This document shows, piece after piece, positions 8,831 through 33,055 of a stretch of DNA of 36,356 nucleotides (positions are counted from its first letter, which is position 1; each line of letters opens with the position of its first letter). Under the pieces are notes generated by a model. The model was not told the DNA's origin, searched no databases, and saw only the letters and a list, made by a program, of their open reading frames with translations. A program made the translations under genes and the position numbers. The DNA is taken from the NCBI GenBank assembly GCA_946538525.1, contig CAMNGU010000011.1, positions 1 through 36,356 of the forward strand, given 5' to 3'. The DNA is from an uncultured Lachnospiraceae bacterium. Lineage in GTDB: Bacteria > Bacillota > Clostridia > Lachnospirales > Lachnospiraceae.

Positions 8831-8872
8831 ATATGAAGAAATAAAATATGAAGAAATAAAATATGAATAAAT
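8831..8872 (+). repeat. 15-nt tandem repeat carrying in-frame ATG-AAG-AAA-TAA units at a start site
   Basis: ATATGAAGAAATAAA occurs at 8831-8845 and 8846-8860, with a partial third copy ATATGAATAAAT at 8861-8872. The third copy supplies the ATG (8863) of the next gene. Each full unit reads ATG AAG AAA TAA in the same frame, so two minimal upstream frames precede the real start. Confidence 0.85.
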
Positions 8873-11800
8873 ATCGTATGAAAAAACTTCATAAAGTAAT
8901 CCTGCAGTTGATGCTTATTTCTGCTTATCCTGCAGTATTTCATGCTGTGGCTTTTCTGGGAAATGGCAATATGTATAAGCCTGATAGTATGGCTGAAATG
9001 AAATTCCCAATAGCTACTTTTTTGGTGTTTGCAATCTTACTTGTAGCTACTTTTGTTACATTTATAATGGCAAAGTTGGCAGAAAAGAGAGCGAAAATCA
9101 TAGAGGACAGTGAAAATTTACAAAGCGGAAAACTAACGGCGAATTTAGCTCATACCACAAGTAAGCTGATAGCTGAAAACTCTGAAGAAAAGTTTCGTGA
9201 AGTTGTAAAAGCTCATGAGACACCTGATGAGAAGAAAAAGAGGAGAAGAAAGGCTATTAGAAGAAAGGTTCCGATTATTTTACTTTTAGTAATAAGTGTT
9301 GCTTTAAGGCTCCCGATGATTGGAACATTTCAAAGATGGGATGCAGGAGAATACTTCTACACCATAGGAACTTCAGTGCAGGATTATACATTTACCCTGT
9401 CGGACTTTCTGTATAATTTCTCAGTTGCTTATCATCTGAATTACGGATTTACAAGTTTCATCGCAATACCGCTATTTATAAATGCGAGAAGCGTTGAGGC
9501 TGTTACCATATGGCAGATCGTATTTTCAATCCTGGCGATACTTGCGTTATATCAGATTTTTAGAACTGATTTTGGATTTAGACGGTCAAAGTCTGCAGTA
9601 GGCGCATTGATGGTTGGAAATGTACCAATATTCCTGGGACTTTCAGCGTATTGTACACCAGACTATTATGTGGTTTTGTTCTTTATATTTGCGCTTTATT
9701 TTGAGGCGAAGAAACTTCATATATTAGAAGCTTTCATGATCCTTATGATGTGCTTTACGAAGGAAAATTCGGCGCTTATTGTATTTGGCTACTATGGAGT
9801 GAAGATTCTTTACAGATTCATAATAGCTGGAAAGCTTGTTGGACAGAGAAAAGCAATTTTAAATAATATTTCTAAAGCAAAGAGTAGTAAAGAATCTGCT
9901 ACGGATTTAAAAGAAGATTATAGCGATGATTATAGTGAAGATTATAACGAAGATTATAGCGAAGAATCAGAAGATGATTATGGAGAATCAGAGAATGATT
10001 CTAAAAAATCAAAACTGAGAGTAACATTTATTGAAAGACTTAAAATTGTAGTATGTTCTAAAGATTTCTGGGTTGCACTTACTACAGGAGCTGTATTTGT
10101 TGCTGCTATGGGTGTAATGGGCTCTAGTTGGGCTGATAAGCTTAATTCTACAACTATTGCACCAGATGGTATTGCGCCTACAGGATTAACCCTTGAAAAA
10201 CCTTATGTTTATTTCAAGTTGAAGCAGTTTTTTGGTTCGAATTATGCATGGCTCATATCTCTATATTTTCTTCATGCATTTAAAAATATAGTGGTTGAAA
10301 GACTATGGAAGAATCTTAGACATAAAGGCTGGATGACATTTTGTGGACTGATGGGCTCGATGTTCTTCTTCCTGGTTTTTGGTCTTGTATATCATATAGC
10401 TGCAATTGAAAGATATAACATTTTCTTTGCGATTGCTTTAGCCTTTATTTGTGCCATAATTCTTGGAACGGATCTAAATAGTAAATGGTCCTATGCGATT
10501 CTTGGTGGAATTCTAGCAATTCTTCTAGGTGTCGAGAGTTTTATAACCATAGATCCAATGACAAAGTGGCTGTTTGAACAGGTTTCCATTGGAAATGGAA
10601 GAACAATGAATTTTGAAAGTGAATTTACTGAATACTTTGGTGATGGTCTAGTTACAAATTATCAATATGCTTGGATAGACAAATCATTTGATAAATTCCT
10701 TGATGATATTGATTACAATACTGACAAAGCAATCTACTTCCCGGATGAGGAAAGTGGAATGAAGTCAGGAGTCCAGTTTGAAGGAAATGGCGGATATTTC
10801 CGAATTGGATGGTTCCCGGAAAAGAGGAAGCGCGGTTATTATGATTACAATATGTCGGATTGGGAAGAACTGTATATCTGCAGAATTTTCTCTGATAATA
10901 CATGGTTCCCTTATGTCTATGTTCCTTACACAAGAAATGTGACTACAGAATATATGAAGGATCAGTCTTATGTTTGTTTTATTCCTTACTATAAGGAATT
11001 GGGAGTGAACGAAGAGTACTATAAAAATGTTCTAAGCGAATACTATTATTTAGGCAGCGAGGAACAGTCGGAAGCTTATCGTGGAGCTATAAGTTATTAT
11101 CCTATGCTAAAAAAGGATTTGTATTCAGGTGGACTTAGCATGGATATGGTAATTGATGAGCTTAGGGCTAGTCAGAATGAGAGTAACCCGGATGCTCAAA
11201 GACAAAAAAATGTTACCAAGACTGAGATAAGCGAAGCTGCCGAGAGGCTTGCCATGTTAAAAAAGTCTGAATATCTGGTTGTTGCTGAAATGAATGAGGT
11301 TGACAGAACAAAAATTCAGGCGATGGATAGTATCATTCTCTCTGTTCAAATGTTTGATTCAGATGGTAAGAAGATTAAATTAGAGCATGAAGATGAAGAC
11401 ATGGTAGTAAGTGTTGGTACAGGGACTTTAGTAGATGAAGTAGATAAAGCTCTTCAGTCAATGGAATGTGGCGAAGTAGCAGATGTGGAGTTCAAGGTTC
11501 CAGAAGGATATCCAGAACTGGAAGAATATGCAGGAAAATCTGTAATTGCAAAGATTAGTCCACAGGAAATTGTTTGTAGTCTTGAATACAGTATTGAGCA
11601 GGAAGATATTGAAGCTATAGAAGCGTATGCCCGCGATGAGGCAAATGAGTATTTTGACAGATTGAAAGCAAAACAGTGGGTTCGTGGATATATATATCGA
11701 AATGGTACAGAAAATCTGACTAGTATGGTTTCTGAAGAAGAAATAGAAGAGGTAAGAGTGTACTATTACGAATATCTTGAAGGAGTCAATAAGACTAGAG

Positions 11801-11892
11801 ATGAATTTGAGGCCTGGATTGGTGCTACTCCAGAGGAATATGAGCAGGCATTGGCAGTAATAGCGGCCTATGCGAAATGGAGTGGAAAGTAA
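8863..11892 (+). CDS. Polytopic GT-C-like membrane glycosyltransferase with C-terminal trigger-factor-type PPIase domain
   Basis: A 1009-residue membrane protein. Hydrophobic helices start near residues 10, 47 and 133, the last after a KKKRRRKAIRRK basic patch, with more up to about 560. QRWDAGEYF after the third helix suits the catalytic Asp loop of GT-C enzymes, and MCFTKENSALIVF is typical of GT39-like proteins. Residues 347-384 form an acidic tandem region (EDYSDDYSEDYNEDYS). About 450 residues after the last helix should be extracytoplasmic. Within them, about 812-902 (MDSIILSVQMFDSDGKKI...VGTGTLVDEVDKALQSMECGE...VPEGYPELEEYAGK) read as an FKBP/trigger-factor PPIase, followed by a helical tail. 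Expected role: transfer of a lipid-linked sugar outside the cell. The ribosome site is weak (GAAGAAA, inside a repeat). Confidence 0.75.
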   Translation: MNKYRMKKLHKVILQLMLISAYPAVFHAVAFLGNGNMYKPDSMAEMKFPIATFLVFAILLVATFVTFIMAKLAEKRAKIIEDSENLQSGKLTANLAHTTSKLIAENSEEKFREVVKAHETPDEKKKRRRKAIRRKVPIILLLVISVALRLPMIGTFQRWDAGEYFYTIGTSVQDYTFTLSDFLYNFSVAYHLNYGFTSFIAIPLFINARSVEAVTIWQIVFSILAILALYQIFRTDFGFRRSKSAVGALMVGNVPIFLGLSAYCTPDYYVVLFFIFALYFEAKKLHILEAFMILMMCFTKENSALIVFGYYGVKILYRFIIAGKLVGQRKAILNNISKAKSSKESATDLKEDYSDDYSEDYNEDYSEESEDDYGESENDSKKSKLRVTFIERLKIVVCSKDFWVALTTGAVFVAAMGVMGSSWADKLNSTTIAPDGIAPTGLTLEKPYVYFKLKQFFGSNYAWLISLYFLHAFKNIVVERLWKNLRHKGWMTFCGLMGSMFFFLVFGLVYHIAAIERYNIFFAIALAFICAIILGTDLNSKWSYAILGGILAILLGVESFITIDPMTKWLFEQVSIGNGRTMNFESEFTEYFGDGLVTNYQYAWIDKSFDKFLDDIDYNTDKAIYFPDEESGMKSGVQFEGNGGYFRIGWFPEKRKRGYYDYNMSDWEELYICRIFSDNTWFPYVYVPYTRNVTTEYMKDQSYVCFIPYYKELGVNEEYYKNVLSEYYYLGSEEQSEAYRGAISYYPMLKKDLYSGGLSMDMVIDELRASQNESNPDAQRQKNVTKTEISEAAERLAMLKKSEYLVVAEMNEVDRTKIQAMDSIILSVQMFDSDGKKIKLEHEDEDMVVSVGTGTLVDEVDKALQSMECGEVADVEFKVPEGYPELEEYAGKSVIAKISPQEIVCSLEYSIEQEDIEAIEAYARDEANEYFDRLKAKQWVRGYIYRNGTENLTSMVSEEEIEEVRVYYYEYLEGVNKTRDEFEAWIGATPEEYEQALAVIAAYAKWSGK
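9910..9995 (+). repeat. 12-nt coding repeat encoding acidic EDYS/EDYN units
   Basis: Within the 1009-residue gene, GAAGATTATAGC-type 12-mers repeat about four times and then degrade, encoding EDYSDDYSEDYNEDYSEES. The period is a multiple of three, so copy number can change without breaking the frame. The tract falls in a loop between hydrophobic helices. Confidence 0.75.
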
Positions 11893-15089: not shown

Positions 15090-16553
15090 ATGAACAAGAA
15101 AAAACTACTACGAATTCTGTTCGTAGTAATAATAATCATTCTTAATTTAATAATTTTTTGGAAGATAGATTTTTCCGATATTGACACCAAGGGTGTTTCA
15201 TTTGTGATGGAGATGGCTTCGAATAAAGATGATGAATATCAGATTTATTACACTAAGGTGGGCGAGGATTTTAGCGAAGCAGCCAGCAAGAAGGTGTTTT
15301 ACGATGGCTTTGCAAATGGAACAGATGTAACAACCATAGAAAATGATACTGAAAGCATTACTGTAGGAAAAAAACAAACCCTAAGATTTGATTATCCAAT
15401 AGAATATGATAATCTTCGTCTTGATTTTGGCCAGTATGCAGGAAATACAGTTATTTATGATATGTATTTTGAGATGTCTGGAGTAAAATATCAGATACCT
15501 ATGGAGCAGATTCAAAATGAGAAGAATGCTCCAAGCATTCTGTCTAGAATATTGATGGAAAAGGAAGGACAACAGTGTCTGGTAGTAAATGCAGAAGCTG
15601 GAGATCCAAACATGCTTATTCAGTTCCATAAGGATCAGCTTTTGGAACAGTATAGAGAAGCAAATAGACAGAATACGCTTATTTTAGATATTGCAATATG
15701 TGTTGTTATGGATTTTATTGCAATCTATGTACTTCTGCACTTTTATTCTTTGATTGATATTCCAGTACAGATTTATCAGAATAGAAAGCTGGCTTTAACA
15801 CTTGCTAAAAATGATTTCAAGACAAAATATGCAGGTTCATATCTTGGTATGATATGGGCATTTATACAGCCGGTGGTTACCATTTTGGTTTATTGGTTCG
15901 TCTTTTCAGTAGGTTTAAAGGCTGGTAATGAGGGAGACTACCCATATGTTCTTTTCATTGTGGTAGGTATTATTCCTTGGTTCTTCTTCTCGGATTCACT
16001 TAATGGAGGAACCAATGCAATGACAGACTATAACTATCTGGTTAAAAAGGTGGTATTCAATATTGATATCCTTCCATTTGTGAAGGTATTATCAGCATTT
16101 TTCGTGCATTGTTTCTTTATTGCATTTGCACTGATCCTCTGTACTTGTATGGGACATCATCCAACCATCTATACGGTTCAGCTTATATACTACATATTCT
16201 GTAACTTCGTGTTTGTACTGGGGCTTTCATATCTTAGCTCTGCAATAGTAGTATTCTTCCGAGATTTAGGGCAGTTTATAAATATATTTATCCTGCAGGT
16301 GGGTGTATGGCTTACACCTATTATGTGGAATGCAAATAAGATGCTTAGTCCAACTGCGCTTAAGTTATTTAAGATAAATCCAATGTTCTATATTGTCAGT
16401 GGATTCAGGGACAGCGTTCTGGATAAGAACTGGTTCTGGACAGGAGACAGACTCCTTTGGACCATTTATTTCTGGATTATCACAATATTGGTATTTGGAC
16501 TGGGAGTAAAAATATTTAGAAGATTGAAGATACATTTTGCAGATGTATTGTAA
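15090..16553 (+). CDS. ABC-2 polysaccharide export permease (Wzm-like) with an added N-terminal extracytoplasmic domain
   Basis: The permease of a glycan ABC exporter, paired with the Wzt ATPase downstream. The C-terminal part (about 225-487) is a complete Wzm/TagG unit: an amphipathic QIYQNRKLALTLAKNDFKTKYAGSYLGMIW stretch, then about six helices including VGIIPWFFFSD and VFFRDLGQFINIFILQVGVWLTPIMW. Normal Wzm proteins are about 260 residues; this one has 487. The surplus is a TM helix (7-24), about 170 residues predicted outside the membrane with strand-like repeats (LRLDFGQYAGNTVIYDMYFE), and a second helix (195-222). I do not know a named family for that domain. The ribosome site is weak (GAGAGAAAA). 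Permease identity is secure; the role of the extra domain is open. Confidence 0.9.
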   Translation: MNKKKLLRILFVVIIIILNLIIFWKIDFSDIDTKGVSFVMEMASNKDDEYQIYYTKVGEDFSEAASKKVFYDGFANGTDVTTIENDTESITVGKKQTLRFDYPIEYDNLRLDFGQYAGNTVIYDMYFEMSGVKYQIPMEQIQNEKNAPSILSRILMEKEGQQCLVVNAEAGDPNMLIQFHKDQLLEQYREANRQNTLILDIAICVVMDFIAIYVLLHFYSLIDIPVQIYQNRKLALTLAKNDFKTKYAGSYLGMIWAFIQPVVTILVYWFVFSVGLKAGNEGDYPYVLFIVVGIIPWFFFSDSLNGGTNAMTDYNYLVKKVVFNIDILPFVKVLSAFFVHCFFIAFALILCTCMGHHPTIYTVQLIYYIFCNFVFVLGLSYLSSAIVVFFRDLGQFINIFILQVGVWLTPIMWNANKMLSPTALKLFKINPMFYIVSGFRDSVLDKNWFWTGDRLLWTIYFWIITILVFGLGVKIFRRLKIHFADVL

Positions 16554-16602: not shown

Positions 16603-17955
16603 ATGTCAGAAGATATAGCAATTAGAATAAATGATGTTTCAAAACTGTATAAGCTTTACGATAAGCCTACTGACCGGTTGAAGGAGTCTTTGGGACTTAC
16701 CAAGGCCAAGAAGTATAAGGAGCATTTCGCTCTTCGCAATGTGAGTTTTGATGTGAAGAGAGGTGAATGCGTAGGAATAATTGGAACTAATGGTGCTGGA
16801 AAGTCTACTATCCTGAAAATCATAACTGGAGTTCTAAATCCTACTGCCGGAGAGGTTACTATAAATGGCCGTATCTCTGCTCTTCTAGAGTTAGGAGCCG
16901 GCTTCAATATGGAATATACAGGTATAGAAAATGTTTATCTAAATGGTTCCATGATTGGATTTAGTCGTGAGGAAATTGATGCAAAATTACAGGATATACT
17001 TGATTTTGCTGATATAGGTGATTTTGTAAATCAGCCTGTAAAGACTTACTCATCAGGTATGTTTGTAAGACTTGCCTTTGCGGTGGCAATCAATATTGAA
17101 CCAGAAATACTTATAGTTGATGAAGCACTTTCAGTAGGTGATGTTTTCTTCCAGCTGAAATGCTTTAAAAAGTTTGAGGAATTTAAGCAGCAGGGAAAAA
17201 CTATTCTCTTTGTAAGTCATGATCTTTCAAGTATAGAGAAGTATTGTGACAAGGCAATTCTTCTGGATCATGGTAGAAATGTTGGAGAAGGAACTCCAAT
17301 TGATATCATAAATAAATATAAGAAGATAATGACAGGAATGACTGTCGAAGAAGTTGAAGAGCAGGAAAAGAGGAAAGCTGAGCTTAGAGATTTAGTAGCT
17401 GAGGACTCAGAAAATTCTGAAAATAAAGAGGAATTAGAAGAGGCTAAAACCAGTACTTTTTCACTTACACCAGAGGTTCCTTGGAAAGAAAGCTTTGATC
17501 TAAATCCAAATCTTGATGAATATGGAGATATGGGTGCCAAGATTATTGATATCGGTGTGTTTGATGAAGATGAAAATCTTACAACCACAATAATAAAGGG
17601 CGGTAAATTTACATTAAGATCAAAGATAGAATTTAAAACAGATATAGAAGATCCTATTTTTACATACACCTTTAAGACACTTAAAGGCCAGGATATTACA
17701 GGTACAAATACCATGTATGAAAAAGCAGGAGTAGGAATTGCCCATGCAGGGGATATATTTGTGGCAAGTTTTACACAGGAGATGAACCTGCAGGGAGGAG
17801 AATATCTGCTCTCTATGAGTTGTACAAGTTTTGTAAATGGCGATCTTGTAGCTCATGACAGACTCTATGATGTATTAAATATCACGGTTGTGTCGGACAA
17901 GAATACTGTGGGATTCTATGATATGAATTCCAAGGTTAAAATTGATAAATTATAG
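16603..17955 (+). CDS. Polysaccharide ABC transporter ATPase with C-terminal glycan-binding domain (Wzt-like)
   Basis: The 450-residue product powers the adjacent permease. Walker A is GTNGAGKST (61-69), the signature is YSSGMFVRLAFAVA, Walker B ILIVDEALSVGD and the switch His LFVSHDL. The N-terminal YKLYDKPTDRLKESLG is typical of glycan exporters. After a charged linker (about 245-280) a beta-rich C-terminal domain follows (about 290-450: DMGAKIIDIGVFDEDENL...GDIFVASFTQEMNLQGGEYLLSMS). In Wzt of polymannan systems this domain reads the modified chain end before export. Its presence predicts a terminal modification, and a methyltransferase and kinase-like gene follow directly. I start at ATG 16603, since AGGTGA overlaps the track's GTG at 16594. 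Confidence 0.94.
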   Translation: MSEDIAIRINDVSKLYKLYDKPTDRLKESLGLTKAKKYKEHFALRNVSFDVKRGECVGIIGTNGAGKSTILKIITGVLNPTAGEVTINGRISALLELGAGFNMEYTGIENVYLNGSMIGFSREEIDAKLQDILDFADIGDFVNQPVKTYSSGMFVRLAFAVAINIEPEILIVDEALSVGDVFFQLKCFKKFEEFKQQGKTILFVSHDLSSIEKYCDKAILLDHGRNVGEGTPIDIINKYKKIMTGMTVEEVEEQEKRKAELRDLVAEDSENSENKEELEEAKTSTFSLTPEVPWKESFDLNPNLDEYGDMGAKIIDIGVFDEDENLTTTIIKGGKFTLRSKIEFKTDIEDPIFTYTFKTLKGQDITGTNTMYEKAGVGIAHAGDIFVASFTQEMNLQGGEYLLSMSCTSFVNGDLVAHDRLYDVLNITVVSDKNTVGFYDMNSKVKIDKL

Positions 17956-18021: not shown

Positions 18022-18765
18022 ATGGATATTTACGACGAGCTTTTAAATATAGTAAAAACTGAATCGGATTTAGAAGAGTTTCTTACCCATGAGAATAAAT
18101 GGGAATATCTCTATAATTTTTCAAATATCAGGAAGAATATTCTCGAATGGTATGATTTTAAATCTGATGCAAAGCTTTTGGAGTTTGGAGCAGAATGTGG
18201 TGCACTCACAGGGCTTTTCTGCGAAAGAGTGAAGGAAGTTGTTTCTGTTGAAGATGATGAGAGAAAACGACTGGTAAATAAAGCAAGAAATGAAAAATAT
18301 AGTAATTTAAAGATTGTATCTAACGAAGAATTGTCAGAGAAATCTTTTGATTATATTACTATAATTGGTAATTTTTCGATTGAAACTTTGAAAAAGGCTA
18401 AAAAGTTATTAAAGCCAAAGGGACGACTTATTATAGCAATCGAAAATAAATATGGAATGAAGTACTGGTCAGGAGAAGAGAGACCTGATACTTATTCCAG
18501 AATGCAATTAATTGGAATAATAAGGCGTGAGGGATTGCTGGAAGATGAGGTTTATTATCCTATTCCAGACTATGTATTACCTACGGAGATATATTCATCA
18601 AATAATCTGCCTAAAGTGGGAAGTATTTCTGCAAACTCTCCAGCATATGAAAAAGAAAAGATTACTGCATTTGACGAACCTTCAGCCTTTGATATGGTGA
18701 TAAAAGACAGAAGATTTGAAGAGTTTGCGAATTCATTTTTAATCTTTGCTAAGAGTAATAGCTAA
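18022..18765 (+). CDS. SAM-dependent class I methyltransferase of the glycan locus
   Basis: The product is 247 residues. LLEFGAECGALTGLF is the SAM-binding motif I (acidic end of strand 1 plus a glycine loop), VVSVEDDERKR motif II, and FDYITIIGNFS the motif IV region. LLKPKGRLIIAIENKYGMKYWSG is a pattern I associate with methyltransferases of clostridial surface-glycan loci. YYPIPDYVLPTEIYSS is the usual end of that family. The central part is shorter than in relatives I recall. It sits between the Wzt ATPase and the kinase/coiled-coil/GT protein, so it most likely methylates the glycan, perhaps at the end read by the Wzt C-terminal domain. AAAGGA is 5 nt from ATG. The acceptor is unknown. 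Confidence 0.8.
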   Translation: MDIYDELLNIVKTESDLEEFLTHENKWEYLYNFSNIRKNILEWYDFKSDAKLLEFGAECGALTGLFCERVKEVVSVEDDERKRLVNKARNEKYSNLKIVSNEELSEKSFDYITIIGNFSIETLKKAKKLLKPKGRLIIAIENKYGMKYWSGEERPDTYSRMQLIGIIRREGLLEDEVYYPIPDYVLPTEIYSSNNLPKVGSISANSPAYEKEKITAFDEPSAFDMVIKDRRFEEFANSFLIFAKSNS

Positions 18766-18815
18766 AATAATTAATTGTTTAGATATATATTATTGAAAAT
18801 AATTGGAGCATATAA

Positions 18816-21800
18816 ATGTCAGAGCTGTTGTATATAAAATATAATTCTCATAGAAAGCCAGAATATCAGGTATCTACACGAATAGTGTCAAAAAATGGCG
18901 TTAAGCGTGTAGTTAAGTGTCCATCGACACAAAAGGCTGAGATGCAAATCGATACAATAAAAAAGAATTATAAATTACTTAAGGATTATTATAACTCAAT
19001 AAAGGTAATACCATTTAGAAAGGCTGGAAATGGTGTTTCTTTTGATTTTGTTGAAGGTACATCAATAATCGAGGGAATTAATTTTGAGAAAGATAGCCTT
19101 GATAGTATTTATAAGAGGCTTCTTCATACAATGGATGAAGTACTGGATATTAAAGAGGAATATATCTGTGATTTCGAAGAAACAAAAGAGTTTAGTGAGA
19201 TTTTTCCGGATATGCATCCTACAGGAAAGGCATATAAAATCTGTAATCTGGATAGTATTTTCAGTAATTTCATAAGGACGAAAGATGGAATAATATGTAT
19301 AGACTATGAATGGGTTTTAAATTTCCCTGTTCCTATCAATTTTATTCGCTTTAGAATGATGCAAAATATCTACAATGAGCATATTGGATATCTTTTAGAC
19401 AAAGTGGATATTAAAGACTTTATAGGATGTCTGGAATTATCTGATGATGAGATGGATTTATATTTTGATATGGAGAGAGCTTTCCAGGAATTTGTTCATG
19501 GAGAGAATTTGAAATACAGCTATTTGGAAAATTATAAGAAAAGCTGGGGCAGATTAGATAATTTCATCGAGGAATTTAAGGAAAAAGAAAATCATGTTAA
19601 GAATCTGGAAGGAATTATTCAGAATAAGGATGAATTAATAAATAATAAAGATGAAGTAATCAAGGCGCGTGAAGAAATAATTCAAAATAAGGATGCAGTT
19701 ATTGAGTCAAAAGAAAACCAGATTAAAGAAAGAGAAATTAGTATTCAGAATTTGAATGATCAGGTTTCTGCAAAAGATAATCATATTGAGAATCTTAATT
19801 CTATAATAGAAAAAAAGCAGGAAGAGCTAGAGAATTTACTAGAAGCAAAGGCTCAATTACAAGAAGCAAAGGATCAGCAGGCAAGGGATTATGACAGTTT
19901 GCTTCAATATGAAATGTTAAGAAGAGATAATGATATTATATATAGAGATGGTCTTCTGCAGATAAAAGATGCTCAGATAGCTCATTTGACAAAAATGACT
20001 AGAAATCCGTTATATTGGGGCTATTGTCTGGGCCGAAAGGTATGTAGAAAAGCATACCGTATTATTGAGCCTAGGGGGTTAAAAGAGAAAAAAGCAGAAA
20101 TAGAGAAGAATGGAAAATATAAGTATAAATATAAAGATTTAATGGATCTGGATAATACAGATTATGCTGACTGGATTGAAAGAGTTGAGAAGAATTATCC
20201 AAAGGAAAAACGCTTAAAATACCAGCCAAAGATATCCGTGTTGGTTCCTGTTTACAATGTGTTGGATAAACATTTGATTCCTTGTATTGAGTCAGTCATC
20301 AACCAGACATATGATAACTGGGAACTATGTCTCGCAGATGACAAATCAACATGGGATAATGTTAGGGAGACTTTGGAAAAATATGAAGATCACCCTAAGA
20401 TTAAGATTGTTTATAGAAAAGAAAATGGACATATATCGGAGGCAACAAATTCTGCTCTATCAGTGGCATCAGGCGACTTTGTTGGACTTTTGGATTGTGA
20501 TGATATTCTTTCTCCAAATGCTTTATATGAAGTTGCTCTAAAGTTAAATGAGAATAGAGAGCTGGATTTTATTTATAGTGATGAGGATAAGGTGGATGAG
20601 GAAGGGAATAATCGCCATATGCCTCATTTTAAACCGGATTGGTCTCCAGATACTTTGATGTCCAATATGTATACATGTCATTTTACAGTGTATAGAAAGA
20701 GCTTAGTGGAAAAAGTTGGTGGTCTTAGAACAGAATGTAACGGTTCACAGGATTATGACTTGGCTCTTCGAATTATGGATGAGACTACTCCAGATAAAAT
20801 CTCACATATAGCTAAAATACTTTACCATTGGAGAGAGAGAGAAGAGTCTACCTCTGGAAATGCAACTGTTAAGCCATATGTTTTTGAAGCAGCTAAGAAG
20901 GCAAAACTGGATTCTCTTGAAAGAAGAGGAATTAAGGGTGAAGCTGTATATGTCGATGAAATGTATCAGTACAATGTTGTTTATACAGTTCAAAATAGTC
21001 CTAAGGTTAGTATAGTCATTCCTTCAAAGGATAATTATAAGGTACTCAGTAGATGTATAGAAACATTGCATAAATATACAGAGTATAAAAATTTTGAAGT
21101 CATTCTCGTTGATAATGGAAGTAATGATGAAAATAGAAAGAAATATGATAATCTATGTAAAAAACATAACATGAAATATTTCTATGAGAAAATGGACTTC
21201 AATTTCTCTAAAATGTGCAATATTGGTGTAAAAAATGCTACTGGAGAATATGTTCTTCTGCTTAATGATGATATTGAAATACTTGAAGAATCAGGAAATT
21301 GGCTTGGTGTAATGCTGGGACAGGCGCAGATATCATATACTGGAGCGGTAGGAGCAAAGCTTTTATATCCTGAAGAAAGAAAGATTCAGCACGTTGGTGT
21401 CATCAATATTGAGAATGGACCAGTTCATGCTTTTACAGGAATGTCAGATGATATTGTTTACTATTTCGGAAGAAATAGGCTGCATTATAATGTCCTAGCA
21501 GTTACTGCTGCTTGTCTTATGATCAGTAAAGAAAAATACTGGAAAGTTGGCGGATTTGATGAAAGCTTTGCAGTTGCCTATAACGATGTAGATTTTTGCT
21601 TCAAGCTTTCAGAGGCAGGATACTTTAATGTAGTAAGAAATGATATAACACTTATTCATCATGAATCTGTCAGCCGAGGGAATGATTTAGTTGATATAAA
21701 CAAGACTAGAAGATTGATGGATGAAGAGAATAGATTATATGGTATTCATAGTTCATATGCACATTATGATCCATTTTATAATTCTAATTTGACTCAGTTA

Positions 21801-22208
21801 AGACATGATTTTGAAAATAATGTTTGTGATTATAAGTTAAAAATATCGAAAGTAAAGAAATATAACAAACAATTATCATTATCTGAAGATGAAAATTTGG
21901 TATTCTCAATAGATGCTATAAATGTTGAGAGATATGTTTATATTGAAGGTTGGGCTTTTTATAAAGGTCGAGAGAATAATAACGACAATAAGGTTAGCGT
22001 TATATTGACTGGAGATTATTCGTATTGTATTGATACATATAAAGTCTATAGAAAAGATGTGGCTGAATATAATGATAAGGAAAAAGATATTGAGTTTGTA
22101 GGCTTTAGATGTAGATTTGATAGAAGACAGATTGAAGACGGTGAGTATGAAATCGTATTAAGAATTAACAGGGATTGTTACGATAGTGAGAAGAAACTAT
22201 TGAAATAG
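18816..22208 (+). CDS. Kinase-like fold, coiled coil and two GT2 domains in one 1130-residue protein
   Basis: Residues 1 to about 245 look like an aminoglycoside-phosphotransferase/protein-kinase fold: RVVKCP (Lys34), SFDFVEGTSI as the hinge, NLDSIFSN (Asp146, Asn151; the HxDxxxxN loop with His replaced by Asn) and CIDYEWV (Asp163). Residues about 252-395 are a coiled coil of clear heptads (NKDELIN, NKDEVIK, AREEIIQ, NKDAVIE, SKENQIK). The first GT2 (about 470-700) has ISVLVPVYN and LLDCDD; the second (about 730-960) has VSIVIPSKDN and LLLNDD. A beta-rich tail (about 1020-1130) begins with YIEGWAFY. There is no membrane helix. Known relatives by logic are WbdD (methyltransferase-kinase-coiled-coil terminator) and WsaE (methyltransferase plus two rhamnosyltransferases). 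A capping or chain-length role is inference; kinase activity is unproven. Confidence 0.78.
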   Translation: MSELLYIKYNSHRKPEYQVSTRIVSKNGVKRVVKCPSTQKAEMQIDTIKKNYKLLKDYYNSIKVIPFRKAGNGVSFDFVEGTSIIEGINFEKDSLDSIYKRLLHTMDEVLDIKEEYICDFEETKEFSEIFPDMHPTGKAYKICNLDSIFSNFIRTKDGIICIDYEWVLNFPVPINFIRFRMMQNIYNEHIGYLLDKVDIKDFIGCLELSDDEMDLYFDMERAFQEFVHGENLKYSYLENYKKSWGRLDNFIEEFKEKENHVKNLEGIIQNKDELINNKDEVIKAREEIIQNKDAVIESKENQIKEREISIQNLNDQVSAKDNHIENLNSIIEKKQEELENLLEAKAQLQEAKDQQARDYDSLLQYEMLRRDNDIIYRDGLLQIKDAQIAHLTKMTRNPLYWGYCLGRKVCRKAYRIIEPRGLKEKKAEIEKNGKYKYKYKDLMDLDNTDYADWIERVEKNYPKEKRLKYQPKISVLVPVYNVLDKHLIPCIESVINQTYDNWELCLADDKSTWDNVRETLEKYEDHPKIKIVYRKENGHISEATNSALSVASGDFVGLLDCDDILSPNALYEVALKLNENRELDFIYSDEDKVDEEGNNRHMPHFKPDWSPDTLMSNMYTCHFTVYRKSLVEKVGGLRTECNGSQDYDLALRIMDETTPDKISHIAKILYHWREREESTSGNATVKPYVFEAAKKAKLDSLERRGIKGEAVYVDEMYQYNVVYTVQNSPKVSIVIPSKDNYKVLSRCIETLHKYTEYKNFEVILVDNGSNDENRKKYDNLCKKHNMKYFYEKMDFNFSKMCNIGVKNATGEYVLLLNDDIEILEESGNWLGVMLGQAQISYTGAVGAKLLYPEERKIQHVGVINIENGPVHAFTGMSDDIVYYFGRNRLHYNVLAVTAACLMISKEKYWKVGGFDESFAVAYNDVDFCFKLSEAGYFNVVRNDITLIHHESVSRGNDLVDINKTRRLMDEENRLYGIHSSYAHYDPFYNSNLTQLRHDFENNVCDYKLKISKVKKYNKQLSLSEDENLVFSIDAINVERYVYIEGWAFYKGRENNNDNKVSVILTGDYSYCIDTYKVYRKDVAEYNDKEKDIEFVGFRCRFDRRQIEDGEYEIVLRINRDCYDSEKKLLK

Positions 22209-25554: not shown

Positions 25555-26520
25555 ATGGCAATTTCAAATAAAACAGTATCTATAATATTACTTTCCTATA
25601 GAAATCTTGAAGGGATATATGAGACTTTAGATAGCATTTTTATTCAGGATTATCCAGAAATAGAGGTGGTTCTCTCCGATGATGGAACACCAGAGTTTAA
25701 TCAGGAAGAACAGCGCTTAAGAGAATATATAGAGAAGAATAAAAAGAATAATACTAAAAATGTAATATTCAATCATCTGGAAGTAAACCAGGGGACTGTT
25801 AAAAATATAAATAGTGGTATCAAAAAATCTTCCGGAGGATATGTTAAGCTGATTTCTTCAGAGGATGTGTTAGCTGATCCTTCATCCCTAGCTAATTATG
25901 TGGCATATATGGATGAGAAGGATGCATATATTGTTTTTGGTAAGATGAGGGGAGTGACCAAGGAAGGCATTTATAAGGATGAGCTTCTTGCCTGTGAATC
26001 AGATTATGATCTGCTAAAGTCCTATAATCTGAAACAGCAGAGAGACAGACTTTTTGCCAGAAACTTCCTTCCGGCACCAGCTGCATTTTTCAGAAGAGAT
26101 GTGTTTGATAAGTGCGGAATGTTTGATGAGGATATCCGACTAATCGAGGATTATCCATATTGGATAAATCTTACCAAGCATCGTGTAAAGTTTGAATATC
26201 TGGATAAGGTTACTGTGTTATACAGGTTATCCGGAGTATCCAGCGCAGGCTCATATAGTGAAATGTTTATGGAAGATATGTTTGTAATATATGATAAGTA
26301 TATCTTCCCATATGACAAGAGATTTAAAGCTTTTCAGAAGCCATATAATGCATTAAAAAGAGATGGACTTACTTTCTATATGGAGAAAGCAAGGCTTAAA
26401 AAATATAAGGGGCTTAGAAAAACTTGGGTATATATTAGATATTCACCATACTTTGTCTATACAAAGCTTTTAGATTTAAAGGTGGATGCTAAGAATAAGA
26501 AAAGTAAGAGGAATAGTTGA
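25555..26520 (+). CDS. GT2-family glycosyltransferase
   Basis: The product is 321 residues and soluble. VSIILLSYRNLEGIYETLDSIFIQDYPEIEVVLSDDGT is a standard GT-A start with the nucleotide-binding SDDG. The usual D-x-D is represented by LISSEDVLADP. FDKCGMFDEDIRLIEDYPYW matches the acceptor-side E-D-x-x-x-W catalytic region of inverting GT2 enzymes, and TVLYRLSGVSSAG follows. Donor and acceptor are unknown; being directly upstream of the amino-sugar genes, it may use their product. The stop overlaps the next ATG (TGATG), so the two are translationally coupled. The Shine-Dalgarno for its own start is weak. Confidence 0.88.
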   Translation: MAISNKTVSIILLSYRNLEGIYETLDSIFIQDYPEIEVVLSDDGTPEFNQEEQRLREYIEKNKKNNTKNVIFNHLEVNQGTVKNINSGIKKSSGGYVKLISSEDVLADPSSLANYVAYMDEKDAYIVFGKMRGVTKEGIYKDELLACESDYDLLKSYNLKQQRDRLFARNFLPAPAAFFRRDVFDKCGMFDEDIRLIEDYPYWINLTKHRVKFEYLDKVTVLYRLSGVSSAGSYSEMFMEDMFVIYDKYIFPYDKRFKAFQKPYNALKRDGLTFYMEKARLKKYKGLRKTWVYIRYSPYFVYTKLLDLKVDAKNKKSKRNS

Positions 26521-26927
26521 TGGAAATAAATACTATAGATTTTGAAGAACATGGTGATGACAGAGGTACTCTTGTAGCTGTTGAACAGTTGAAGAATCTA
26601 CCTTTTGAGATAAAAAGATGTTACTACATGTATGATACCAAGCCTGGAGTAAGGAGAGGATTTCATGCCCATAAAGCCTTAAAACAGGTTTTACTTTGTG
26701 TTCATGGTAGTTGCAAGATTCTTTTGGATGACGGAACTGAAAAAGCAGAGGTTCTACTCGATAAGCCTAATCATGGGCTTGTTATCGAGTCAAATATATG
26801 GAGAGAAATGTTTGATTTTAGCGAAGATGCAGTGCTGATGGTTCTTGCATCTGAACTATATGATGAAGCTGATTATATTAGAAATTATGATGATTTTATT
26901 AAATATGTAAATGAAAAGGAGAATTAA
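26520..26927 (+). CDS. dTDP-4-keto-6-deoxyhexose 3,4-ketoisomerase (FdtA/QdtA type)
   Basis: This 135-residue small cupin moves the keto group of dTDP-4-keto-6-deoxyglucose from C4 to C3. [23 protein letters not shown] and the family motif [14 protein letters not shown] with its active-site histidines are clear, followed by [13 protein letters not shown]. The length equals that of FdtA/QdtA/WxcM-type isomerases. Whether it yields the galacto or gluco isomer (Fuc3N or Qui3N route) cannot be told by eye. I start at ATG 26520, eight nucleotides after AAGAGG; the track's TTG at 26517 is less likely. The aminotransferase follows after five nucleotides. Confidence 0.9.
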
Positions 26928-26932
26928 GTATA

Positions 26933-28021
26933 ATGAATATTCAATATACTGATTTTGCAAAAATGCATGATCCAATTAGAGAAAAACTGGATGCCGCTTA
27001 TAAAGAGGTTATGGATTCAGAGTGGTTCATCGGTGGAAAACAGGATGAAGCATTTGAAAAAGAATTTGCCCAGTGGTGTGGTTCGAAATATTGTATAGGC
27101 GTTGGTAATGGACTTGACGCACTTAGACTAATCCTTCAGGCTTATAATATAGGTGAAGGTGACGAGGTTCTTGTTCCATCAAATACTTTTATAGCAACTG
27201 TGCTTGCTATATCATATGTTGGGGCGAGACCTGTTTTTGTTGAACCGGATATTGATACATTTCTTATTACTCCAGAGGAAACTGCAAAGAAGATCACTCC
27301 GAAAACTAAAGCCATTATGGTGGTTCATCTTTATGGCCGACTTGCAGATATGGAGGGATTTGTAAGCTTAGCAGAGAAGAACAATCTTCTCCTGTTTGAA
27401 GATACAGCTCAGGCTCATGGTGCAATGCATAATGGTAAAAAAGCTGGAACCTTTGGAAAGGCAGGTGCTTTTTCATTTTATCCAGGAAAAAATATTGGTG
27501 CCCTGGGAGATGCTGGTGCTGTAGTTACAGATGATAAGGAATTAGCTGATAAGATAAGAGCCTTAGGTAATTATGGTTCTACAAGAAAATATAAGCATGA
27601 TTATATAGGGGTTAATTCAAGACTTGATGAATTCCAGGCTGCATTCCTAAGAGTAAAGCTTCCTGTTCTAGATGAGTGGACAAAGGAACGACAGAGAATA
27701 GCTGATATATATTATGACAAGATTCATAATGATAAAATAGTTCTTCCAAAGTATACAAAGGAAAATGTGTATCATATATTCCCTGTACTTTGTGAAACAA
27801 GAGATGAATTACAGAAATATTTAGAAGATGAAGGAATTCATACTTTAATCCACTATCCAATTGCGATCCATTTACAGGAATCCTATGCTGATCTGGGATA
27901 TGGAAGAGGAGATTTTCCTTTAGCGGAAAAGATAGCAGATCAGGAACTTAGTATTCCACTATATCCTGGAATGAGTAGTGAAGAGATAGAATATGTTATT
28001 AAAGCATTAAATGAGTTTTAA
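26933..28021 (+). CDS. dTDP-3-keto-6-deoxyhexose aminotransferase (FdtB/QdtB type, DegT family)
   Basis: A 362-residue PLP enzyme of the DegT/DnrJ/EryC1/StrS family. [41 protein letters not shown] (cofactor Asp) and [17 protein letters not shown] (Lys186, the Schiff-base lysine) are all present, as is [12 protein letters not shown]. It aminates the 3-keto sugar made by the ketoisomerase directly upstream. AAGGAG precedes ATG 26933. With the GNAT gene that follows, it defines a route to a 3-acetamido-3,6-dideoxyhexose (Fuc3NAc or Qui3NAc). Confidence 0.93.
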
Positions 28022-28082
28022 ACATATTTCGTAATTAGATGTTGCTTCAGGTATTGAAATAGATACAGATAAATAATGATAG

Positions 28083-28107
28083 ATAAATAGGACAAATAAA
28101 TAGGATA
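28083..28107 (+). repeat. 13-nt tandem repeat containing the ribosome-binding site
   Basis: ATAAATAGGACA (28083-28094) recurs 13 nt later as ATAAATAGGATA (28096-28107); only the second AGGA is at a useful distance (7 nt) from ATG 28113. The upstream part of the same 91-nt spacer carries related GATAAATAATGATA sequence. Confidence 0.7.
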
Positions 28108-28112
28108 AAAAA

Positions 28113-28643
28113 ATGATAAGAAATCTTAGAATGGAAGATGCTCCTGCAATGTTTGAATGGATGCATGACGAGAATGTAGTCCGTAATCTTCAGGCAGATT
28201 TTATGAGTTTTGGAATGGATAAGGTTAATGCGTTTATCCAGGCAAATTTTGAACCTGATATGGATGGCGATAATGTTAATTATGCCATTTGTAATGAAGA
28301 AGATAATTATGTAGGAACTATCAGTTTAAAGAATATAGATAGAAAGAATAAAAATGCAGAATATGCAATAGTTACTGGAAGCAAGGCACATGGGAAGGGT
28401 TACGCTAAACTTGCAACCATGGATATTCTAAAGGTGGCATTTGAAGAACTGAAGCTGGAAAGAGTTTATCTTTATGTTTCAGTAAATAATATTCCAGCAA
28501 ATAAATTTTATCAGAAGATGCATTTTGTTGAGGAAGGGGTTTTTAGAAAACATCTAATGATAGATGGAGAATTAAGAGATATTAGGTGGTATAGCATATT
28601 ACATGAAGATTATCTTCGTATGAAAGAAGAAAATGAAAGATGA
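28113..28643 (+). CDS. GNAT acetyltransferase (RimJ/RimL-like), probable amino-sugar N-acetyltransferase
   Basis: A 176-residue GNAT protein. IRNLRMEDAPAMFEWMHDENVV is the usual N-terminus, NAEYAIVTGSKAHGKGYAKLATMDIL contains the acetyl-CoA loop (Q/R-x-x-G-x-G/A in the form KAHGKGYA), and LYVSVNNIPANKFYQKMHFVEEGVFRKH completes the fold. After an FdtA/FdtB pair the expected enzyme is FdtC/QdtC, a left-handed beta-helix acetyltransferase. Here a GNAT occupies that place, so a replacement of that step is likely. An unrelated acetylation target is possible. Confidence 0.82.
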   Translation: MIRNLRMEDAPAMFEWMHDENVVRNLQADFMSFGMDKVNAFIQANFEPDMDGDNVNYAICNEEDNYVGTISLKNIDRKNKNAEYAIVTGSKAHGKGYAKLATMDILKVAFEELKLERVYLYVSVNNIPANKFYQKMHFVEEGVFRKHLMIDGELRDIRWYSILHEDYLRMKEENER

Positions 28644-28655
28644 GAATAAAAGAAA

Positions 28656-29951
28656 ATGAATATGCTTAGCAAATTATTGTTTGGTAATAGTGAAAATATT
28701 TCGAAGAGAGTTTACTTTTGGAATCTTTGTTCCAGCATGGTGTATAGTTTTCAATCTGCTATATTACTCCTTGTTGTAACCAGAGTAGGGGGCTTGGTAG
28801 AAGGAGGTATATTCTCTATTATTTATACAGTAACTCAGACTCTGGCTTCACTTGGAAGTTATTCCATGAGAAATTATCAGGTATCTGATGTTAAAGATGA
28901 TTATAATTTTGAAACATATTACACTTCCAGAGTAGTAACATGTGTACTTATGATTCTTTCCTGCGTAGTCTATGCAATTTATAAGGGCTCCAGTATAGAT
29001 AAATTTTTTATAATCATACTATTTTCGTTATATAGAACGGTTGATGGCTTTGAGGATGTATATCATGGAGCGGTTCAAAAGCTGGGAAGACTGGATGTTG
29101 TTTCCATAGCTATGACATTTAGGATAACCCTGTCTATGGTTATGTTTTCAGTACTTTATGTAATCACACATAATTTATTGATTGCTTCAGTTGGAATGGT
29201 AATTACGGCAGTTGCACTTTTACTAGGATTCAATAAGATAATTTTTTCCGAATTTACAGAGATTAAAAGAGGAATCGATTTTAGCAAAGTATTTAAATTA
29301 CTTACAGTATGTTTCCCTATATTTTTAGGAGCAATTTTATATAATTATCTGGTGAATGTTCCTAAATATTCTATAGATAATAATCTTGGAGAAGCAACAC
29401 AAACCATATTTAATATTCTTTTTATGCCGGTATTTGTTGTTAATATTTTGAGTATGTTTATCTTTAAGCCTATGGTTAACCAGATGGGAATATGGTGGAA
29501 AGATGGAGAGATAAAGAAACTTTTATTCTCTGTAATAAAGCAGATACTGATCATAGGTGGACTTACTATATTAGTGATAATTGGCGGATATTTTTTAGGA
29601 TGCCCTGTTTTGGGAGCGGTTTATAGCGTTGATCTGTCAGATTATCCATTATTCTTTGCAATGCTTCTTTCCTTTGGAGGAATCGCAGCATTATCAACTT
29701 TCCTCAGTGTGGTACTTACTATTATGAGGAAGCAGGCTTTTATAATCTTAGGCTATGTTCTTGGTTATATTGTTAACCTGTTTATAACTGATAGATTAGT
29801 TATACAATATAAGATAAGTGGAGCCGGATACGCTTATGGAATTATAATGGGCGTGGTTCTTATAGTATTTATAGTAGTTGCAGGAATAAATTTTGTTATT
29901 CGATATAATGAGGTGAAGAATGGTAGAGTTATTAAAGAAGATTTATCATAA
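28656..29951 (+). CDS. MOP-superfamily polysaccharide flippase (Wzx-like)
   Basis: The product is 431 residues with about twelve hydrophobic helices. VYFWNLCSSMVYSFQSAILLLVVTRVGG opens the first helix in the manner of O-antigen flippases, and RNYQVSD follows the second helix as in the Wzx/RfbX group. It would flip an undecaprenyl-linked oligosaccharide outward, making a second exporter besides Wzm/Wzt. The ribosome site is poor (AAAGAAAA). It begins 12 nt after the GNAT stop, and its last 32 nt overlap the next gene, so expression is coupled. The family is clear; its substrate is unknown. Confidence 0.87.
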   Translation: MNMLSKLLFGNSENISKRVYFWNLCSSMVYSFQSAILLLVVTRVGGLVEGGIFSIIYTVTQTLASLGSYSMRNYQVSDVKDDYNFETYYTSRVVTCVLMILSCVVYAIYKGSSIDKFFIIILFSLYRTVDGFEDVYHGAVQKLGRLDVVSIAMTFRITLSMVMFSVLYVITHNLLIASVGMVITAVALLLGFNKIIFSEFTEIKRGIDFSKVFKLLTVCFPIFLGAILYNYLVNVPKYSIDNNLGEATQTIFNILFMPVFVVNILSMFIFKPMVNQMGIWWKDGEIKKLLFSVIKQILIIGGLTILVIIGGYFLGCPVLGAVYSVDLSDYPLFFAMLLSFGGIAALSTFLSVVLTIMRKQAFIILGYVLGYIVNLFITDRLVIQYKISGAGYAYGIIMGVVLIVFIVVAGINFVIRYNEVKNGRVIKEDLS

Positions 29952-31227: not shown

Positions 31228-31240
31228 ATTGGAGGTATAT

Positions 31241-33055
31241 ATGCAGGCAGTTATTCTTGCGGCTGGAATGGGAAAAAGACTAAAGGAACTTACCCATGAT
31301 AACACAAAATGCATGATTAAGGTTAATGGTGTAACATTAATTGAAAGAATGCTTGGACAAATTGATAAACATCATTTATCAAGAATTATAATTGTTGTAG
31401 GATATGAAGGTGAAAAATTAAAAGAATATATTTCTACTCTTAATATAAGTACTCCAATTGAGTATGTTGATAACCCGATATATGATAAAACTAACAATAT
31501 ATATTCGTTGGCGCTTGCAAAGGATTATCTGGCGTCAGATGATACTCTTCTTTTTGAATCTGATCTGATATTTGAAGATTCGCTTATTGATGAGCTTCTT
31601 AATGATTCTAGAGATACCCTTGCGTTGGTTGATAAATATGAAAGCTGGATGGATGGGACATGTGTAAAAATTTCTGAAAATGATGATATTGAAGCATTTG
31701 TTCCTGGAAAGAAGTTTAAATTTAATGAAATTAAAGATTATTACAAGACTGTAAATATATATAAGTTTAGCAAGCATTTTTCAGAAACGCATTATGTTCC
31801 ATTCCTTGATGCATATCAGAAAGCACTTGGATTAAATGAATATTATGAGCAGGTTCTCAGAGTGATTACCATGCTAGATAATCCAGAAATTAAAGCTAAG
31901 AGATTATCTGGACAGAAATGGTATGAGATAGATGATATTCAGGATTTGGATATTGCTGAATCTATCTTTAGTCCTGATGATGATGAAAGGGTTAAACTTA
32001 TACAAGGAAGATATGGCGGTTATTGGAGATACCCAAAATTGCTTGATTTCTGTTATCTAGTTAACCCATATTTTCCTCCGGAAAAGATGAAAGATGAGAT
32101 TAGAGCGAATTTTGATACATTGCTTACGGAATATCCATCAGGGATGCGTGTGAATTCTCTACTTGCTGCCAAAAATTTTGGCGTTCATCAGGAAAATATT
32201 ATTGTTGGAAATGGTGCTGCTGAGCTTATTAAGTCATTGATGGGATATTTAGAGGGAAAGGTAGGTTTTATAAGGCCAACTTTTGAAGAATATCCTAATA
32301 GATATGACAGGAATAATTCGATAGATTTTATTCCTAATAATAATGATTACTCTTATTCAGCTGAAGATATAATTGAATATTTTGAAGATAATAGAATTGA
32401 TAACTTAATCATAATTAATCCTGATAATCCGAGTGGGAATTATATATCAAAAGAAGGATTACTTAAGCTAATTAATTGGACGAAAGACAAAAGTATAAAA
32501 CTTGTTATCGATGAATCTTTTGCAGATTTTTCTGATGAATTAGATAATACACTAATAGATCAGGGGATTCTATCATCAAATCCGCACCTTTTTGTTATGA
32601 AGAGTATTTCAAAGTCTTATGGTGTTCCAGGATTAAGACTAGGTGTTCTAGCATCAGGTGATGAAAAAATAATTGCAAAAATGAAAAAGGATGTTGCTAT
32701 TTGGAATATTAATTCCTTTGGTGAATTCTATTTACAAATAGAGGAAAAATATAAGAAAGATTATGAAGAAGCTTTAGTGAAGTTTAGAACTGAGAGAAAG
32801 CGATATGAAAAGGAATTAGAAAGAGTTAAAGGAGTTAGAGTTATTTCATCTCAGGCAAACTTTGTTATGGTGGAATTGGATGAGGATATTTCTCCAAAGG
32901 ATTTATTAAAGATAATGCTTATTAAGCATAATATTCTTATCAAAGAATTAACAACAAAGACAAATGGCAGAAATTATCTAAGGCTTGCTGTTAGAGATAA
33001 AAAAGATAATGATTATCTTGTCTCGAAATTCTTACTAGAATTGGGAGAAAAATAA
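31241..33055 (+). CDS. LicC-like nucleotidyltransferase fused to a class I/II aminotransferase
   Basis: Two enzymes in one chain of 604 residues. Residues 1 to about 245: AVILAAGMGKRLKELTHDNTKCMIKVNG is a nucleotidyltransferase P-loop of the LicC (phosphocholine cytidylyltransferase) kind, with LLFESDLIFED as the metal site. Residues about 255-604: a fold-type I PLP enzyme of HisC/CobD style with VGNGAAELIKSL, INPDNPSGNYI, LVIDESFADF and MKSISKSYGVPGLRLG (Lys458). A comparable fusion known to me is PntC joined to 2-aminoethylphosphonate transaminase. The product may be a CMP-linked amino-phosphate or phosphonate for the TagF-like transferase upstream. I start at ATG 31241 after GGAGG (31231-31235). 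Substrates are not identifiable by eye; no PEP mutase gene is in the window. Confidence 0.83.
   Translation: MQAVILAAGMGKRLKELTHDNTKCMIKVNGVTLIERMLGQIDKHHLSRIIIVVGYEGEKLKEYISTLNISTPIEYVDNPIYDKTNNIYSLALAKDYLASDDTLLFESDLIFEDSLIDELLNDSRDTLALVDKYESWMDGTCVKISENDDIEAFVPGKKFKFNEIKDYYKTVNIYKFSKHFSETHYVPFLDAYQKALGLNEYYEQVLRVITMLDNPEIKAKRLSGQKWYEIDDIQDLDIAESIFSPDDDERVKLIQGRYGGYWRYPKLLDFCYLVNPYFPPEKMKDEIRANFDTLLTEYPSGMRVNSLLAAKNFGVHQENIIVGNGAAELIKSLMGYLEGKVGFIRPTFEEYPNRYDRNNSIDFIPNNNDYSYSAEDIIEYFEDNRIDNLIIINPDNPSGNYISKEGLLKLINWTKDKSIKLVIDESFADFSDELDNTLIDQGILSSNPHLFVMKSISKSYGVPGLRLGVLASGDEKIIAKMKKDVAIWNINSFGEFYLQIEEKYKKDYEEALVKFRTERKRYEKELERVKGVRVISSQANFVMVELDEDISPKDLLKIMLIKHNILIKELTTKTNGRNYLRLAVRDKKDNDYLVSKFLLELGEK

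Follow-up and report, generated by a model that had tools for sequence, protein, structure and literature searches.

An O7-type putative kinase-coil-glycosyltransferase protein beside a probably inactive methyltransferase homolog in a Lachnospiraceae glycan export locus

ORF6 of Klebsiella pneumoniae O7 is a single protein in which a methyltransferase is followed by an unannotated AmiN-like kinase, then by a CBM-like domain and a coil, and finally by two GT2 domains that carry DXDD and NXD motifs (PMC11231755, Kelly et al. 2024). Its kinase is biochemically active, and the exchange D441A abolishes both phosphorylation and export (PMC11231755). In WbdD of Escherichia coli O9a, which is an analogous system, kinase, methyltransferase and coil are combined and the cap is read by Wzt_C. 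O9a chains are terminated by phosphorylation alone, kinase-dead WbdD blocks surface O-PS, and H132/H133 of WbdD are essential for its methyltransferase activity (PMC3482155). Geobacillus WsaE is encoded in a Gram-positive ABC-exporter locus and fuses a terminator module to two GT domains. It caps by 2-O-methylation through this fused methyltransferase, no kinase has been described for it, and its length control is said to require another factor (PMC2943079). In WbbB of K. pneumoniae O12, a single chain unites the terminator with a coil ruler and the polymerase (PMC11231755).

The window analyzed here, a stretch of 36,356 nucleotides, is a contig of the 2.6-Mb genome (80% complete) of a gut or rumen Lachnospiraceae bacterium. 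A relative of the same genus, the uncultured Lachnospiraceae RUG12891 (L032), carries an ortholog locus. In the window, genes for Wzm, Wzt, a member of a methyltransferase family and a protein of 1130 aa follow each other on the plus strand. A preliminary description of this DNA had correctly placed the latter two ORFs directly behind Wzm/Wzt, and the glycan-binding end of the ATPase and the two GT2 domains that it had proposed were recovered as well:

15090-16553, plus strand: Wzm-like ABC permease (Pfam ABC2_membrane, 1.7e-13) whose N-terminus is extended by about 200 aa
16594-17955, plus strand: Wzt-like ATPase (PF00005, 8.5e-25)
17515-17925, plus strand: Wzt_C glycan-binding domain of Wzt (PF14524, 136 bits)
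18022-18765, plus strand: O7-type phosphate-methyltransferase homolog of 247 aa, probably inactive as judged from residue losses, and compared with RUG12891 by dN/dS
18816-22208, plus strand: kinase-coil-GT2-GT2-beta protein of 1130 aa
18816-19538, plus strand: kinase-like domain, residues 1-241, with K34 (18915), D146 (19251), N151 (19266) and D163 (19302)
19551-20000, plus strand: helical coil region, about residues 246-395, with unbroken heptads at about 261-345
19836-19876, plus strand: 21-bp tandem duplication, LLEAKAQ LQEAKDQ (one heptad), the exact site where RUG12891 is 7 aa shorter
20214-20939, plus strand: first GT2 domain, residues 467-708, DCDD at 560
20991-21809, plus strand: second GT2 domain, residues 726-998, NDD at 817
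21897-22166, plus strand: C-terminal beta-rich domain, residues 1028-1117, without Pfam match

The extra N-terminal segment of Wzm is also found in 12 other surveyed loci, including that of RUG12891.

To relate this locus to O7, the comparison was made through a plasmid protein of Pseudomonas asturiensis and the published O7 residue numbers. This protein was found by tblastn (1457 aa, L217:8920-13293), is encoded beside Wzm/Wzt genes, and shows the published O7 residues Y28, Y66, G91, G93, E112 and Y158 as the same letters at identical numbers. A methyltransferase profile of the window gene and its relatives matched it with 187 bits, both GT profiles matched with 280 and 302 bits, and the kinase profile matched its kinase segment at the catalytic motif (1.4e-8, two-sequence search), with D146 aligning to D443, next to O7 D441. 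Thus the system of the window belongs with the O7 type, and by sequence its closest known counterpart is K. pneumoniae O7 ORF6 rather than WbdD or WsaE, to which it had been likened before. Both share the O7-type methyltransferase family, an unannotated APH-like kinase, a coil, two GT2 domains (DXDD, then NXD) and Wzm/Wzt genes; that terminated chains alone are exported, as in O7, is proposed for the window by analogy. Consequently, the general layout is not novel as initially assumed: it was published for O7 ORF6 in 2024, and O12 WbbB likewise joins terminator, coil and polymerase.

However, the window differs from O7 ORF6 in several aspects. Its methyltransferase is a separate gene without the active-site residues, its host is Gram-positive, and it lacks a CBM-like domain between kinase and coil, possessing instead the beta-rich domain at the C-terminus, which in relatives is also found on neighboring proteins or placed between kinase and GTs. 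With O9a WbdD the window shares kinase, methyltransferase and coil, while cap reading by Wzt_C and termination by phosphorylation are proposed for the window from this analogy. In contrast, the WbdD kinase is eukaryote-like, with no sequence relation to that of the window detected, its polymerase WbdA is separate and its methyltransferase is active. WsaE resembles the window in its Gram-positive exporter locus and in the fusion of a terminator module to two GT domains, but was ruled out as closest kin on sequence. It also differs in its layout, since the window has a kinase-like domain and encodes its methyltransferase in a gene of its own. O12 WbbB, unlike the window, has different terminator and GT families (GT99, GT102, GT103) and no described kinase.

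The kinase-like fold that had been proposed for the N-terminus of the 1130-aa protein is supported by its residues, though not confirmed by structure prediction. K34, D163, E165 and W166 are present in 103/103 kinase-domain copies, D146 and N151 in 98% of them, and residue order and spacing are as in kinases (D-x4-N, with the next D 12 residues further). None of 78 members of the domain matched a kinase family in Pfam. Profile-profile alignment to APH kinases (hhalign) reached a probability of 51.6% and placed the catalytic motifs in register, whereas six unrelated families reached at most 1.7%. The WbdD kinase gave 0.6%, which is a weak test as the target was a single sequence; APH against WbdD, the positive control, gave 70.7%. 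In a profile search of the PDB the best match, JAK1, was non-significant (E 0.17) and WbdD was absent among the matches; WbdD was ruled out as closest kin on sequence. AlphaFold2 modeling of the domain from two sequences (window and RUG12891) delivered a pLDDT of 41.4, too poor to use, and the order of secondary-structure elements in this same low-pLDDT run is compatible with a kinase. Foldseek found zero significant matches to the model. Two choline kinases and WbdD 4uw0 were among its non-significant matches and are discounted as evidence. No relative of the domain was found in the viral contigs searched, and a plasmid search with the window kinase gave no match, while an MT-kinase relative as query gave two Gram-negative matches.

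This kinase family is widespread. Among 299 Lachnospiraceae genomes it was detected in 144 by sequence search and in 157 by a 78-row profile; in 299 genomes sampled phylum-wide it occurred in nine, four of which, including the window's own, belong to the same family. Wzt_C was found in 149/157 kinase-bearing genomes and in 31/142 others (Fisher p 2e-42), so that the expected co-occurrence with Wzt_C-bearing ATPases was borne out. Neighborhoods were surveyed at 102 loci (the window, RUG12891 and 100 from genus-level representatives) with 103 kinase copies. Of these copies, 45 carry an N-terminally fused methyltransferase and 57 of the remaining 58 have one as direct neighbor, thus 102/103 overall, and a Wzt with Wzt_C lies within the locus for 94/103, so that Wzm/Wzt-type neighbors are the rule among relatives. 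The architectures found were kinase-coil, MT-kinase-coil, kinase-coil-GT(-GT) and MT-kinase-coil-GT(-GT). These associations support the earlier proposal that a putative chain-terminating kinase and its coil are joined in one protein with predicted polymerizing GTs and tied to a Wzt_C exporter. An unannotated kinase family of such breadth in Lachnospiraceae is new.

By sequence the methyltransferase gene belongs to the O7 family, yet the active-site residues of this family and several of its SAM-site residues are missing. In P. asturiensis/O7 numbering, the window protein lacks the N-terminal YSDG stretch that holds O7 Y28 and carries the substitutions G93 to E, E157/Y158 to S/I and E204-D205-H206 to R-P-D; two loops are shortened in the alignment to the O7-type family. 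Y66, G91, G95, E112 and the YPxPDY region are kept. E157/Y158 align with H132/H133 of WbdD. Across 121 loci these motifs behave all-or-none, with 58 intact, 61 lost and 2 mixed. Y158 is found in 58/58 intact sequences against 0/69 aligned segments of the lost group and H206 in 58/58 against 4/69, while the structural positions N192, Y247, P248 and P250 are still present in lost-group proteins. The kinase beside a lost site is intact, with K, D and D in 61/61 loci and N in 60/61 (single exception N151H). The lost form is not decaying but remains under purifying selection: dN/dS between window and RUG12891 is 0.11, and other unsaturated lost-form pairs give about 0.07-0.24. In a FastTree phylogeny of the kinase domain the methyltransferase state switches at least 14 times by parsimony, with five contrasts on well-supported branches. 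Thus the loss is recurrent and affects half of the loci, including the window. A link of the loss to GT fusion is strong by raw numbers (49/66 vs 12/52, p 4e-8) but is not claimed here, as the tree gives no independent support.

The assembled genome (80% complete) holds no second methyltransferase of the O7 family. Pfam RrnaAD barely exceeds its cut-off over the SAM-binding half of the window protein, and an AlphaFold2 model from two sequences (pLDDT 43.6) was too poor to use. Judged from its residues, the protein is probably inactive as a phosphate methyltransferase, and the working methyl cap proposed in the preliminary description finds no support because the residues for methylation are lost. 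That the methyltransferase site is lost time and again, with the altered form kept under selection, is new; neither this nor the breadth of the kinase family is described in the open-access literature searched. E. coli O8 WbdD represents the mirror case, a methyltransferase without kinase (PMC3482155).

The coil has a genuine heptad periodicity: between residues 260 and 345, hydrophobic residues occupy 12/13 heptads in one register, a score that none of 20,000 shuffles equaled. However, the unbroken stretch spans about 85 residues and not the 140 first described, and the coil is 'heptad-perfect' for one stripe, since Lys/Arg prevail at the second core position. The 1130-aa protein of the window and its nearest ortholog, that of RUG12891, are 84% identical, and their sole indel, 7 residues, lies in the coil; at the DNA level it corresponds to a 21-bp tandem pair (90% match) of which RUG12891 has one unit fewer. 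Coil length varies widely among members. In a subclass of 1040 aa, 17 proteins have exactly 181 residues between the kinase and GT anchors at a coil identity down to 24%, and a conserved QRLTNNHVxNL stretch within the coil resembles a binding site. Between pairs of coils, indels are most frequent at lengths of 7, 14, 21, 28, 35 and 42, in part an artifact because alignments favor register. An excess of period-21 repeats in coils (6 arrays/60 kb vs 22/1639 kb) is not taken here as evidence of a mechanism, as it may follow from heptad coding. Together with the analogy to known rulers, these length patterns fit a ruler, without proving one.

Taken together, the locus is best read as encoding a polymerase that gauges chain length and caps with phosphate, accompanied by a pseudo-methyltransferase partner. 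We infer its reactions, ruler function, cap recognition and the role of the partner as follows. In the cytoplasm, the two GT2 domains would elongate a lipid-linked glycan until its non-reducing end arrives at the kinase, which sits at the opposite end of the coil; phosphorylation there would stop growth. The phosphate cap would be recognized by the C-terminal domain of Wzt and the chain exported by Wzm/Wzt, while the methyltransferase-fold protein may be retained as a partner with a structural or regulatory role for the kinase. Since this partner has probably ceased to act as a phosphate methyltransferase, a bare phosphate is the most likely cap. Such a cap is mechanistically sound, because phosphorylation is sufficient for chain termination in O9a, where surface O-PS is blocked by kinase-dead WbdD. 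That the locus encodes an O7-type terminator-polymerase, with a kinase that caps with phosphate and a methyltransferase-fold partner that has lost its phosphate methyltransferase function, appears reasonably probable to us.

Other explanations have to be weighed against this reading. The methyltransferase could be diverged yet active, so that chains would end in a methyl-phosphate as in O7, or in a methyl on another atom. Its unchanged operon position, conserved C-terminal half, partly retained motif I, strong purifying selection and RrnaAD match barely over the cut-off all agree with this, and because G91, G95, the acidic residue 112 and the YPxPDY region are kept, some SAM binding or altered activity is possible. 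However, E157/Y158, E204-D205-H206, YSDG and G93 are lost jointly in 61 loci and kept jointly in 58, the first pair corresponds to residues essential in WbdD, and the assembled genome (80% complete) holds no other methyltransferase of the family; we consider an active enzyme unlikely. That the kinase-fold domain is itself a glycan- or partner-binding pseudo-enzyme, with termination by other means, agrees with its lack of a sequence match in Pfam or the PDB and of a confident fold. Yet its catalytic residues are all near-invariant across highly diverged sequences and the similar O7 kinase is biochemically active, which renders this explanation very improbable.

The length-gauging part of our preferred reading faces its own competitor, in which the coil is a mere scaffold that joins kinase and GTs. 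The candidate binding site in the 1040-aa subclass and the wide variation in coil length point in this direction. In contrast, the distance between the anchors is exactly 181 residues in 17 proteins despite strongly diverged coils, the sole indel between window and RUG12891 is one heptad, and indels peak at multiples of seven, in part an alignment effect, so that a scaffold seems somewhat doubtful to us. One might speculate further, and we do so tentatively, that phosphate-only capping operates in Lachnospiraceae, that a dead methyltransferase evolved repeatedly and was kept as obligatory partner of the kinase, and that glycan length is tuned heptad-wise by 21-bp tandem duplications.

About half of the sampled Lachnospiraceae, a dominant family of gut and rumen, carry a kinase family for which no Pfam model exists and which probably controls a main surface glycan in both its length and its export. 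The ortholog pair of window and RUG12891, 84% identical and one heptad apart, represents a natural ruler experiment. Furthermore, since the methyltransferase site is repeatedly lost while the kinase stays intact, bare phosphate versus methyl-phosphate caps are predicted in sister species, a contrast that would test which part of the cap is recognized by the exporter.

The kinase-coil-GT2-GT2 protein of the window carries a beta-rich domain without annotation, which recurs in other loci; L074, L084 and L096 are examples:

window 21897-22166, beta-rich domain
L074, residues 580-666, beta-rich domain
L084, residues 355-433, beta-rich domain
L096, residues 296-379, beta-rich domain

Its placement varies: it is C-terminal in the window protein, lies in the interval between kinase and GT in other members, and is found on adjoining proteins in many loci. 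It may correspond to the CBM-like domain that ORF6 of Klebsiella pneumoniae O7, the terminator-polymerase of the closest known system, contains, although sequence comparison of the window-type domain with the CBM-like domain of the O7-type, plasmid-encoded P. asturiensis protein gave no match. In a relative of kinase-coil architecture the coil itself is repetitive:

L046:8877-9118, tandem repeat in the coil, 2.9 copies of an 84-bp unit

Each unit corresponds to four heptads, and this coil is lengthened through tandem duplication.

Other features of the window are listed below:

8863-11892, PMT-like protein, 1009 aa
12018-14321, 767-aa protein
15090-15750, extra N-terminal segment of Wzm (about 200 aa), upstream of the ABC2_membrane part
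26517-28643, consecutive genes for an FdtA-like isomerase, a DegT aminotransferase and a GNAT acetyltransferase
28656-29951, 431-aa protein
31229-33055, LicC/PntC-like nucleotidyltransferase fused to a CobD/threonine-phosphate-decarboxylase-like PLP enzyme, 608 aa

The PMT-like protein contains an FKBP/trigger-factor-like domain around residues 808-899, an unusual fusion. Neither the 767-aa nor the 431-aa protein, both encoded within the glycan locus, had matches in Pfam or NCBIfam. The Wzm extension is common to 12 other surveyed loci, including L032, while most loci lack it.

The run of isomerase, aminotransferase and acetyltransferase genes suggests that the glycan contains a dTDP-3-acetamido-3,6-dideoxyhexose. 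The nucleotidyltransferase-PLP fusion, which a CDP-glycerol-phosphotransferase-like gene adjoins, could convert phosphoserine to CDP-ethanolamine for decoration of the glycan.
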